This document shows, in pieces, positions 37,505 through 62,090 of a DNA stretch of 64,000 bases. The stretch comes from an uncultured Armatimonadota bacterium (GTDB lineage: Bacteria > Armatimonadota > Fimbriimonadia > Fimbriimonadales > Fimbriimonadaceae): NCBI GenBank assembly GCA_903899015.1, contig CAIUHP010000078.1:62001-126000 (forward strand). Direction: 5' to 3'. Within the stretch, counting starts at the first letter, position 1. Each line of letters begins with the position of its first letter. A program made the translations under genes and the position numbers. The notes beneath the pieces are model-generated. The model did not search any database. It was not told the origin of the DNA and was given only the letters and a program-made list of their open reading frames with translations.

Positions 37505-39190
37505 ATGATTGGAATTCTCCTTGCTGCATCCTTGCTTGCACATCAGAACGCTTCGTCTGGCTTCAAATACAGATGGGTCTACACAATGACCAACATGTAC
37601 CGTGCCGAGGAAGCAGATCGACTCGTGGGAATCATCCAGCGGGCAAGCAAGGTGGGATACAACGGGTTGGTATTTGCTGACACAAAACTTCAAAGCCTGT
37701 CGGAAATGCCTGACTTCTACATCAAGAACTTCAAGAAGGTACAAACTGCCGCTCAAGAGAACCATATCAGCCTAATTCCGGCGGTGATGTCAGTGGGATA
37801 TTCCAACTCATTCCTTGCACATGATCCCAACCTGATCGAAGGGATGCCGGTTGTCGACGCACCCTTCACTGTCCGCAACCGGTTGGCGAATCTCGTGCCT
37901 ACGGAAGGTCAACATTTTAAGAACGGTAATTTTGAAGGTGCAAATGGCGATAAAGTAAACGGCCTATCCTACCAAGATGGCCCAGGACAGTCCAGTTTTT
38001 ACGACTCCACCACCTTTCACAATTCAGGTCATTCGATTCGAATGGAAAATCCCGGAGCAGTCAAGGAGGTTGGTGGAAATTGCCGTGTGGTGCAACAAGT
38101 ATCCACAACTCCGTTTCGACAGTATCACGTCTCTGCATGGCTCAAAACGCAGGATTTCGATCAGGCAAGCAACGTTCGAATCATCGCCCTCGACTCAAAG
38201 GGACAATCCCTCTGCTTTCAAGATTTAAGTGTCAAGCCGACTCAGGATTGGAGCAATGTCCACATCACATTTAATAGCCAAAAGGCAGAAAGTGTTAGCG
38301 TTTACATCGGCGTCTGGGGCGGCAATAAGGGCAAGATGTGGGTGGCCGATACTCAATTCGAGGAGACCGGTTTGTTGAATGTGATCCGGCGCTCAGGTTG
38401 CCCAGTTGTCGTGAAGGGTACAGACGGAACCGTGTACAAAGAAGGGGAAGACTTCGAACAAATTGTTGACCCACATTTTGGGAATATCCCTTGGCCCGGG
38501 GAATATGAGATCTACCACGCATCGCTTCCCATAAAGATCATCCCGGGAAGCCGTATTCGAGAAGGGCAACATTTACTTGTGTCGTTCTACACCGCAACCG
38601 TTACGGGAGGCGACCAGGCTAACGCCTGTGTGAGCGAGCCGGAATGGGACAAGCTTGCCATTGAAGAAGTTCACCGCGTGAACCAACTGTTTCAGCCCTC
38701 CGGATTTTTCCTTTCCCACGATGAGATGCGGGTGGCCGGTTGGTGCGCCACTTGCCAAACACGACATCTTACGCCCGGGCAAGTTCTCGCATCCAACATC
38801 GCTCGATGCGGGCAAATCATTAAACAGGAACATCCTGGTGCAGAGATGTTTGTGTGGTCGGACATGTTTGACCCGTACCACAACGCACACAATAACTACT
38901 ATCTGGTTAACGGAGATCTTAAAGGTTCCTGGCTTGGTCTTCCTCCGGAAACCGTCATCGTCAATTGGAATTCGGGGGATGCAAAGAATAGTCTGCCTTT
39001 CTTCGATGAAAAGGGATTTGGTCAAATATTGGCGGGATTCTACGACGGTCCTGTGGAGAGCATTAAGGGTTGGCTCAACGATGCAAAATCCCTCAAGCAT
39101 TTGAAAGGCGTCATGTATACGACTTGGGTTGGGGATTATTCCAAATTAGAGAAGTTCGCTCAGGTCGCTTGGGGAACAGGTAGAAAATAA
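37505..39190 (+). CDS. Exported TIM-barrel-like glycosidase-type protein
   Basis: This 561-residue protein has a short signal peptide (MIGILLAASLLAHQ). The first part (about 20-120) looks like the start of a TIM barrel (RWVYTMTNMYRAEEADRLVG...GYNGLVFADTK). A beta-rich carbohydrate-binding-like insert occupies about 135-290. The barrel seems to resume with GFFLSHDEMRVAGWCATC (a possible catalytic Asp-Glu pair), FVWSDMFDPYHN and VNWNSGD, as in GH20-like enzymes. I cannot name the family. It begins a plus-strand group with a galactonate-dehydratase-like enzyme (27-base gap) and a ceramidase-like protein. A role in glycan use is inferred. Confidence 0.6.
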   Translation: MIGILLAASLLAHQNASSGFKYRWVYTMTNMYRAEEADRLVGIIQRASKVGYNGLVFADTKLQSLSEMPDFYIKNFKKVQTAAQENHISLIPAVMSVGYSNSFLAHDPNLIEGMPVVDAPFTVRNRLANLVPTEGQHFKNGNFEGANGDKVNGLSYQDGPGQSSFYDSTTFHNSGHSIRMENPGAVKEVGGNCRVVQQVSTTPFRQYHVSAWLKTQDFDQASNVRIIALDSKGQSLCFQDLSVKPTQDWSNVHITFNSQKAESVSVYIGVWGGNKGKMWVADTQFEETGLLNVIRRSGCPVVVKGTDGTVYKEGEDFEQIVDPHFGNIPWPGEYEIYHASLPIKIIPGSRIREGQHLLVSFYTATVTGGDQANACVSEPEWDKLAIEEVHRVNQLFQPSGFFLSHDEMRVAGWCATCQTRHLTPGQVLASNIARCGQIIKQEHPGAEMFVWSDMFDPYHNAHNNYYLVNGDLKGSWLGLPPETVIVNWNSGDAKNSLPFFDEKGFGQILAGFYDGPVESIKGWLNDAKSLKHLKGVMYTTWVGDYSKLEKFAQVAWGTGRK

Positions 39191-41995: not shown

Positions 41996-42568
41996 TTAGT
42001 TCGGCATCAGGACTTTGTCGATGACCTGGATGACTCCGTTCGATTGATAAACATCATAGGTGGAGATGCTTGCGACTCCGCCTTTTTCATCCTTTACGAC
42101 GATGTTCATCGGGCCATTCATCATGAACGTCAAGGTTCCACCATTGAGCGCCTTAACCATGAACATTCCGCCGTTTTTGCGGATGCCAGCCTTGAGAGCC
42201 TTCGAGTCGTACAAGCCTGCAACGACGTGGTAAGTCAAGATCTTTGTGAGGGTGTCCTTATTCTCAGGCTTCACAAGGGTATCAACCGTGCCATCTGGCA
42301 AAAGCTTGAATGCGCCGTTCGTAGGAGCGAAAACGGTTAAGGGGCCCTTGCCTTTCAATGCGTCGACGAGACCGGCGGCCTTTACTGCCGCGACGAGCGT
42401 GGTGTGATCGGGAGAATTGACGGCATTACCGACAATATCCATCGACTTCATCATCGAGGCACCGCCAACCATTGGGTTATTGTCCATGGCCTTGTCTTGG
42501 CTAACAGCTGCGATTGCGCCGAATGAAAGGGATGCGAATGCAACTAAGGTTGTGAGTTTGAAATTCAT
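41996..42568 (-). CDS. Secreted fasciclin-domain (FAS1) protein
   Basis: From the ATG at 42568 (MNFKLTTLV) this protein has 190 residues and a signal peptide (about 1-24). The start is set by AGGAGA 7-12 bases upstream; the longer frame to 42637 has no signal. The FAS1 domain (about 45-190) shows H1-like GKGPLTVFAPTNGAFKLLPD and the H2-like LTYHVVAGLYDS and IQVIDKVLMP segments. FAS1 proteins mediate surface adhesion or, in bacteria, sit with anti-sigma factors or stress genes. It is the only gene with the five-copy phased repeat at 42655-42703 in its upstream region. Confidence 0.92.
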   Translation of the reverse strand: MNFKLTTLVAFASLSFGAIAAVSQDKAMDNNPMVGGASMMKSMDIVGNAVNSPDHTTLVAAVKAAGLVDALKGKGPLTVFAPTNGAFKLLPDGTVDTLVKPENKDTLTKILTYHVVAGLYDSKALKAGIRKNGGMFMVKALNGGTLTFMMNGPMNIVVKDEKGGVASISTYDVYQSNGVIQVIDKVLMPN

Positions 42569-42654
42569 TTTAGGTTCTCCTGTCGGGCGTCTTTTCGTGA
42601 TCACCCGACGATTACAAGGAGAGTGTGCAACGTTCAAAAGCCGGTTTTTCAGGA

Positions 42655-42703
42655 TGATCGATAGATGATCAGAGCATGATCAGAAGGTGATTGTTAAATG
42701 ATC
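42655..42703 (+). repeat. Five TGATC/TGATT direct repeats at exact 11-bp spacing
   Basis: TGATC occurs at 42655, 42666, 42677 and 42699 and TGATT at 42688, each exactly 11 bp apart, upstream of the fasciclin gene (87 bases from its ATG). The six-base separation between cores is variable in sequence. An 11-bp period puts all copies on one face of the helix, as in tandem sites of OmpR/PhoB-type response regulators and SARP activators. The same motif occurs three times before the ferritin-like gene (59911-59937). Confidence 0.85.
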
Positions 42704-59046: not shown

Positions 59047-59826
59047 CTAGCCGGGAGGGTTACCAACTAGTCCCGTGCCGCTTGGGACAAATCCAGGGTT
59101 GAACGTGACCGCTACTGTGTTGCTAGCGCTCGCGCTGAGGAAAGGTGTAAGGGCCGTGACCACCTGGCTGATTGATGTCAGTCCGAACGTTCTCTCATAG
59201 ACACTATTGTTCGGTGGCGTCACGGTCTCTGCCGTGCCTGAAAGCCCGGTCGTCGTGCTTAGTCCGAGGTCACCGGCAGCGGTGCGGATAAGCGTTCTGT
59301 GATCGCTCTCAACACCCATGATCTGAGCCGCTAACACTCTGAGTCCAGGAGAAGAAAGGTTCTTTACACCAATCAAGTAAGCCGCAATGAACGCTTCTTC
59401 AAGCGTGGTCATCACGTTAATCGTCGTTTGAACGTCAGTGAACATTCCCGTCGGGAAATAGTAATTCAATGGGGCATCGGTATTGCCGGTAGCGCCTTTG
59501 AGGAGGTTGTAATGGAACATTTCCTCGTTGAGCGCCGCTGAGAAGTAGGCCTGGTCGCTGGCATTCAGTCCGGTGTAAATTGCCGACGCGTTGAACGCGG
59601 TGTACATCGAAACAGCAAGAGCTTCAGCGATCTTTGCTGCACCTAGGATTTGAGCATCCCCGGTGCTGGCGCCAGTTCCGGAGGTCGTTGAGCTTGTGCC
59701 ACTTCCACCACAACCAGCAAGAATTCCACCTGCTACGAGGGAAGCACCTGCCATTCCCACTCCTTTCAGAAATTGTCGGCGATCTACGCCTGCAGTCATG
59801 GGTTCCAATTCCTTTATGTTCTTCAT
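59047..59826 (-). CDS. Tat-exported ferritin-like lipoprotein
   Basis: From the ATG at 59826 this protein has 259 residues. AGGAG lies about 7 bases upstream, so I prefer it over the longer frame to 59916. The N-terminus carries a twin-arginine signal (DRRQFLKGVGMAG) with a lipobox-like LAGC, so it is a Tat-exported lipoprotein or secreted protein. The mature part (about 55-210) is a four-helix ferritin-like domain with iron-ligand patterns NEEMFHYNLL and GVESDHRTL. A Thr/Ser/Gly linker follows the signal. Related proteins are often found with stress or polysaccharide genes; the iron function is inferred. Three phased TGATC sites adjoin its promoter. Confidence 0.87.
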   Translation of the reverse strand: MKNIKELEPMTAGVDRRQFLKGVGMAGASLVAGGILAGCGGSGTSSTTSGTGASTGDAQILGAAKIAEALAVSMYTAFNASAIYTGLNASDQAYFSAALNEEMFHYNLLKGATGNTDAPLNYYFPTGMFTDVQTTINVMTTLEEAFIAAYLIGVKNLSSPGLRVLAAQIMGVESDHRTLIRTAAGDLGLSTTTGLSGTAETVTPPNNSVYERTFGLTSISQVVTALTPFLSASASNTVAVTFNPGFVPSGTGLVGNPPG

Positions 59827-59881: not shown

Positions 59882-59910
59882 ATCGTATCTCGGGAAGGTT
59901 TTGAGGTCCA
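59882..59910 (-). promoter_or_regulatory. Promoter TGGACC-17 bp-TACGAT of the ferritin-like gene
   Basis: On the minus strand TGGACC (59910-59905) and TACGAT (59887-59882) are 17 bp apart. The -35 is poor (4 of 6), as in activator-dependent promoters, and is the end of the third TGATC repeat unit. The 5' UTR would be about 50 bases. Confidence 0.45.
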
Positions 59911-59937
59911 GATCAAAAACCGATCATATTTCGATCA
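59911..59937 (-). repeat. Three TGATC direct repeats at exact 11-bp spacing
   Basis: On the minus strand TGATC occurs at 59937, 59926 and 59915 (start positions), exactly 11 bp apart, immediately upstream of the ferritin-like promoter's -35. This repeats the arrangement upstream of the fasciclin gene (42655-42703). Tandem sites abutting -35 are typical of PhoB-like activation. The divergent oxidoreductase gene could share control. Confidence 0.8.
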
Positions 59938-61352: not shown

Positions 61353-62090
61353 TCAATAAGCCTGATACTCGCCGTACAGTTCGTGGCCTTGGAAAGGGGC
61401 TCGGGCTTTACTGAAGGCACTCCACTTAGCGTGTCCTTCAGCGTAAATGCCGTTGCTTCCTTTCGTATGACGATCGGGAGAAATAGCGATTGGGTTGACG
61501 ATGTCGGATGCGCTGCCGGGGATTTCAGTTTCGCCGAGCCAGGGATGGAAGTGAACATCGCAAAAGTTGTCTCGACGCTCAGCGATATAGATCGATTGAG
61601 CAGGAGCTGGAATGTCGCTGGAAGTTGCGCCAAACAGATAGTAGGCATTTAACAAAAAGCTGCTCAACGGCCCTGGAGGCGAGGCAAGAGGATTTGAACC
61701 AATACAATTCTGATTAGCATCCAGCAACTTCAATCCGTGAGGATCAGGATCGGTTGGGCATACGTAGAGCTGAGTCTTGTTTGTATCCTTGCTTGCGACA
61801 TAGGGCAAAAGTTTGTCGAACGGCGATCCGAAGTCGATTGCCTCAAGTTGAGCTTCGTTATCGTCAACAAGCGGGTTGAACGTTGAAGGATGCTCTTGCG
61901 GGTATCGATCATCGTAATCGCCAAGATAGATCATGAGGGCGACCCCAATTTGACGACCGTTTGAGAGACATTGCGTCTTCTTGGCAGCTTCTTTTGCTTG
62001 CGCGAAAACGGGGAAAAGGATGGCGGCGAGAATCGCGATGATGGCAATCACGACGAGTAATTCGATAAGGGTAAATGCGTTCTTTCTCAA
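61353..62090 (-). CDS. Type IV prepilin-like protein (DUF1559/H-X9-DG type)
   Basis: This 245-residue protein begins [20 protein letters not shown], a prepilin signal cleaved before the Phe, with the long conserved N-helix reaching [19 protein letters not shown] (about 25-44). This version of the helix is characteristic of Armatimonadota and Planctomycetes. The rest is a secreted head with a few cysteines and, late, a segment [21 protein letters not shown] typical of the H-X9-DG class (here with EGH in place of DG). It is probably a pseudopilin or surface protein. It reads convergently with the oxidoreductase and is 92 bases downstream of the gene at 62183. Confidence 0.92.

Follow-up and report, generated by a model that had tools for sequence, protein, structure and literature searches.

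TGATC arrays with an 11-bp period as candidate operators of a STAND ATPase regulator in Fimbriimonadales

Promoters with pho boxes, which are controlled by PhoB/OmpR regulators, contain direct repeats with an 11-bp period that replace the −35 element and have the core CTGTCAT. In a study of a Mycobacterium pilus, TGATC is said to occur together with an 11-bp direct repeat. MalT multimerises and cooperatively occupies several MalT boxes (PMC4381067), and SARPs bind 11-bp repeats at the −35 region, where they contact sigma region 4 (PMC10936776; PMC5930380). Our literature searches returned next to nothing on transcription factors or the sites that they bind in Fimbriimonadales (Armatimonadota), nothing that joins fasciclin with DUF4331, and nothing that joins fasciclin with ferritin-like proteins, a regulon and a sigma factor. 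The genome described here carries direct repeats of the same 11-bp period before a small number of genes. We propose, with a probability of about three in four, that these arrays are the operators of a positively acting STAND ATPase, with activation resembling that by MalT.

Phased TGATC arrays in the window and in the genome

The window, which is the whole 64-kb stretch of DNA that was analysed, contains two phased arrays. The first (positions 42655..42703, plus strand) was read directly as an exact triplet plus extensions, with TGATC at 42655, 42666, 42677 and 42699 and TGATT at 42688, exactly the five sites at an 11-bp period that the original prediction had placed before the fasciclin gene. 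The second, for which the same motif and period had been claimed, lies at 59911..59937 on the minus strand and consists of three exact boxes, TGATCG-N5-TGATCG-N5-TGATCT. This array runs parallel to the adjoining ferritin-like gene and the first is opposed to the fasciclin gene. The opposite orientation described earlier is real; however, the polarity of the fasciclin array is less marked than first claimed because its boxes 2 and 3 are TGATCA palindromes. A further TGATC at 42598 is out of phase with the fasciclin array, and a TGATC pair at 37822, which sits within a coding gene, was discarded as an array. An Rfam search of the fasciclin region returned no match, and an RNA element is therefore not indicated.

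Dinucleotide-preserving shuffles of the window give an expectation of 0.21 for the TGATC triplet with up to two mismatches, versus six overlapping matches found, all of which are confined to the two arrays. When all 5-mers were searched on the plus strand at periods of 8 to 15, exact triplets in the 64 kb occurred only at period 11. In the fasciclin array the repeated 5-mers are ATGAT and TGATC, and in the 59911 array it is GATCA, which is the TGATC core on the opposite strand. A pattern search of the 4.94-Mb assembly that contains the window found three exact copies of TGATC-N6-TGATC-N6-TGATC, versus about 0.009 expected in random sequence, and the backward-read control of this pattern gave no exact match in the genome. 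All three copies are intergenic and precede the fasciclin gene, the Tat-exported ferritin-like gene and a small ORF, respectively. The genome search thus added a further intergenic site, that before the small ORF, to the two already noticed, and near-exact sites were found in relatives too, several of them ahead of genes for exported proteins, so that the proposed search for more sites had a positive outcome. The third triplet, on contig 25, comes after the 3′ end of the gene for a 691-aa regulator and is followed by an 87-aa ORF and then by a convergent lpxC-like gene (named by eye). The other two-mismatch matches that were checked (6/6) all fall inside ORFs of 369–845 codons and fit the chance rate. 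The comparison with the interior of genes therefore does not refute the prediction, as the exact triplets are intergenic and the six weaker matches lie within ORFs.

The present genome is labelled G000 below, and the relatives compared with it are G002, G018, G020, G021, G022, G033 and G073. Exact triplets occur in six of 85 genomes of the family, four of which belong to the genus of G000 and two to other genera. G018 has exact sites before both the ferritin-like ortholog and the small ORF, G022 before the former and G020 before the latter. Near-exact sites are found before the fasciclin gene in G022 (one mismatch) and G020 (two mismatches), with the relative orientation seen in G000, before the small ORF in G022 and G021, and, with one mismatch, upstream of the ferritin-like gene of G021. 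The aligned sites differ between species in their spacer bases and keep the 11-bp period constant, so that the comparison of orthologous upstream regions bears out the expectation of conserved spacing with variable spacers. The exact triplets in G033 and G073 were examined by eye and are near-perfect short tandem repeats (TGATCGGTCGT; TGATCCGAAAG/TGATCCGAGAG); they were set aside for this reason and because neither genome has a match to the regulator.

Two other readings concern the repeat itself. The array might be a cluster of GATC methylation sites for a methylation-sensitive, SeqA-like protein, which would suit the GATC found in most boxes and their helical spacing; this is very improbable, because the degenerate boxes TGATT, TGAGC, TGACC, TGGCC and TGAGT lose GATC yet hold the period. 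Equally improbable is a chance or selfish repeat, given that the sites go with promoters and with a single regulator gene and that the chance rate is only 0.009 per genome. That the arrays are operator elements is strongly supported.

Target genes and promoter anatomy

The fasciclin-domain exported protein is encoded at 41996..42568 on the minus strand (Pfam Fasciclin, 4.7e-30), about 87 bp from the array, and its start ATG at 42568 agrees with the starts of its orthologs. The ferritin-like gene (59047..59826, minus strand) encodes a 259-aa protein identified by a Pfam Ferritin_2 match (1e-13), a Tat signal and its orthologs. The 87-aa ORF (L001:1655-1918) is conserved and tied to the array and the regulator; it has no match in Pfam or NCBIfam and no obvious export signal. 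It bears a DCFWHD motif near its start and PG..GP near its end, and distant homologs of it occur in regulator-less genomes. Near-exact sites also precede the gene of an exported DUF4331 protein in G020 (L083:1579-2355; reversed array upstream, one mismatch) and that of an exported 195-aa protein of an uncharacterised family in G021 (L082:1606-2190; reversed array with up to four boxes). These assignments support a small regulon of about three genes, mostly for exported proteins, under the control of the arrays. The earlier suggestion of a small regulon of surface proteins holds in that the targets are mostly exported, and has to be qualified for the third target, the small ORF. Near the ferritin-like region, the ORF at 61353-62090 of the window has, by eye, a type IV pilin-like N-terminal signature.

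Next to the ferritin-like gene, a −35-like hexamer, TGGACC (59905..59910, minus strand), touches the third box at a position that is conserved in the aligned forward sites, and a −10-like hexamer, TACGAT (59882..59887, minus strand), follows after a 17-bp spacer. Alignment of ten forward sites gives the consensus A-N2-TGATCGgaAAATGATCGg-N3-tTGATCT, and in most of them GATACAA or GATACGA begins at a fixed distance of 21 nt after the third TGATC. The composite pattern TGATC-N6-TGATC-N32-GATA was matched exactly six times, in six genomes; every match is a true site, and the backward control gave none. The forward promoters appear to be of the sigma70 type (TTGTGA/TGGACC, 17 bp, TACAAC/TACGAT), with the third box meeting a poor −35, and the promoters of the ferritin-like gene and the small ORF would by analogy be arranged as class II activator promoters.

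The array is reversed at the fasciclin genes of the genus, at the DUF4331 gene and at the exported-protein gene of G021. The fasciclin promoters have a CTCyTTTGTAA-like element in common, with the conserved −10-like sequence CCTTGTAATC (42610..42619, minus strand; aligned by eye in G000, G022 and G020). The distance from this −10-like element to the nearest box is 38 nt in G000 and 50 nt in G020 and G022, values about one helical turn apart. The conserved CCTTGTAATC is likely to be a promoter element of the fasciclin gene. The fasciclin site of G002 is forward and more degenerate, with TGGCC as its third box.

A predicted STAND ATPase regulator gene accompanies the array

The 691-aa regulator gene is located outside the window, on contig 25 (~G000:C25:130227-132296). 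A first search for the protein covered the 85 genomes of the family, and a subsequent profile search covered 113 of the order, six of which encode it: G000, G018, G020, G021, G022 and G002, the last belonging to another genus. The array is present in every one of the six. Five (G000, G020, G021, G022 and G002) have it directly 3′ of the regulator gene, where it begins about 10–90 bp past the stop codon. The next gene in G002 encodes fasciclin, which brings regulator, array and fasciclin together in one locus, and in G018 the array and the small ORF lie about 10 kb downstream of the regulator on the same contig (G018:C68:2336-12540). Within the genus, exact triplets are restricted to genomes with the regulator (4/4; hypergeometric p 0.001).

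Orthologous genes in regulator-less genomes have no array. For the orthologs of the ferritin-like gene and the small ORF and for the closest orthologs of the fasciclin gene, the best triplet within 300 bp upstream had 0–2 mismatches in genomes with the regulator and 3–6 in those without it (Mann-Whitney p 2e-4; array-less paralogs were part of the test). Periods of 9, 10, 12 and 13 gave no signal in this comparison. In a single-gene IlvC tree with modest to weak support, G000, G018, G020 and G022 are grouped, and G021 and G002 are placed elsewhere; part of the co-occurrence of regulator and array reflects shared ancestry, because the six genomes are related.

When 84,980 species genomes were scanned with two peptide patterns, which may miss distant relatives, the regulator was found only in these Fimbriimonadales, in one Chloroflexi MAG and in one Rhodothermaceae MAG fragment. 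The Chloroflexi homolog (L107:5998-8085) is 44% identical and has no TGATC arrays within 14 kb, and its operator may differ from the TGATC array. In the Rhodothermaceae fragment, the homolog runs into the edge of its contig.

Since the array occurs only in genomes with the STAND regulator gene, this regulator is the probable reader, an identity that we infer from its co-occurrence and synteny with the array. The original prediction was right in seeing a multi-copy activator site and a small regulon, and its choice of an OmpR/PhoB-type regulator or a SARP as the binder is not supported. Head-to-tail dimers of an OmpR/PhoB-family response regulator could bind the array as they do pho boxes over the −35; the geometry fits and nine Trans_reg_C matches are encoded in G000. 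However, such regulators are present in 20/20 genomes of the genus and the array in five only, and in the flanks that were read none was seen beside the sites, where the STAND gene adjoins the sites of the small ORF and, in G002, that of the fasciclin gene; we consider this reading unlikely. Binding by a SARP, a BTAD-domain activator, is less likely still. SARPs use direct repeats spaced by 11 or 22 bp near the −35 (PMC10936776; PMC5930380) and BTAD proteins are encoded in G000, but these proteins occur in 17/20 genomes of the genus, most of them array-less, the flanks that were read contain no linked BTAD gene, and the linked regulator has no BTAD match. Because both families are found in most or all genomes of the genus, neither tracks the array.

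The third candidate, a TetR repressor whose gene adjoins that of the regulator, is hardly credible as the reader. In G000 and G022 the tetR and regulator genes diverge from a stretch that contains the palindrome GGAAYGATCRTTCC, which shares the GATC core of the boxes, and G020 has a weaker form of it; against this, no tetR adjoins the regulator in G021 or G002, both of which bear arrays, and the arrays consist of direct repeats that no GGAA/TTCC dyad flanks. The palindrome (TTCTGGAATGATCGTTCCAGAA at L014:8140-8153, G000 contig 25) is probably the operator of TetR itself, and this tetR is next to an AcrB-type efflux gene.

The STAND regulator is predicted to combine a STAND ATPase, a GNAT-fold middle part and a C-terminal helix-turn-helix that is most like sigma region 4. 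The N-terminal part is a P-loop NOD-type ATPase, with GPGGVGKT invariant in the six regulators and an AAA_16 match of 4.4e-7, slightly under the Pfam cut-off. An AlphaFold2 model of the whole protein, built on seven homologs, has a moderate pLDDT of 74.8. Its best PDB fold match is MalT (8bob; Foldseek E 5.4e-6), in an alignment of high rmsd that is largely confined to the ATPase part, and residues 357–540 match GNAT folds (FeeM, 2g0b; Z 13.1) at moderate model confidence. The C-terminal 120 residues, modelled alone, form a helix-turn-helix with a pLDDT of 95, which is the putative DNA-binding domain. Most of its highest-ranking matches, including the best, are sigma region 4 structures, with moderate Z scores of about 6–8 (up to 8.1) and a Foldseek probability of up to 0.99 at an E of about 0.4; one of them was solved on −35 DNA. 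At the sequence level, an NCBIfam SigF match is weak (E 0.086). The LuxR-type EL222 ranks below sigma region 4, from which its fold is hard to tell apart, and the regulator has no match to GerE, BTAD or Trans_reg_C in Pfam.

Proposed activation and comparison with known activators

In the probable mechanism, the STAND regulator binds the array cooperatively and switches on about three genes. A signal together with ATP would cause the regulator to oligomerise, and the DNA-binding domains of the oligomer would cooperatively fill the TGATC(G) boxes, one for each helical turn, on a single face of the DNA, with one reading head per turn by analogy with MalT and the SARPs. Such one-box-per-turn binding would account for the strict 11-bp period, for copy numbers of three or more and for the fact that one or two boxes can be degenerate. 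At the forward promoters, the last box abuts a weak −35, and a regulator bound there could therefore touch the polymerase and recruit it, as MalT, PhoB and SARP activators do; it would act as an activator rather than a repressor. The fasciclin array is reversed and further upstream, which suggests that the regulator activates this gene over a distance or by touching the polymerase elsewhere. A more specific version is tentative and has somewhat less than an even chance: the STAND ATPase, with its sigma region 4-like head, would polymerise along the promoter and so set one −35-type reader per turn, the nearest box would hand over to the housekeeping sigma, and the GNAT-fold sensor would switch the assembly. 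If true, a polymerising STAND ATPase of this kind would be a separate route to activation from direct repeats, distinct from those of SARP, PhoB and MalT.

The proposed pair of regulator and operator for Fimbriimonadales was derived from sequence alone and is open to a direct binding test. The set is small, with one regulator, one operator and two or three targets, which suits the study of STAND activators beyond MalT and AfsR, and one switch would connect poorly understood exported proteins, namely fasciclin, the Tat ferritin-like protein and DUF4331.

The array resembles the pho boxes of PhoB/OmpR in its 11-bp direct repeats over the −35. However, its core is unlike CTGTCAT, no linked OmpR-type two-component genes were seen and its taxonomic distribution is different. 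The operators of the SARPs AfsR and PimR likewise consist of two or three direct repeats with an 11-bp period near a poor −35 (PMC10936776; PMC5930380), whereas the core of the array is TGATCG, the linked protein lacks a SARP domain, and its last repeat reaches the −35, unlike that of the SARP operators, which is placed 8 bp from the −10. E. coli MalT is, like the regulator, a STAND ATPase with an N-terminal nucleotide-binding oligomerisation part, a middle part and a C-terminal helix-turn-helix. The two differ in the middle part, which is a predicted GNAT fold in the regulator and a SUPR/TPR sensor in MalT, in the C-terminal domain, which in the regulator is most like sigma region 4, and in the box sequence and the strict 11-bp triplet.
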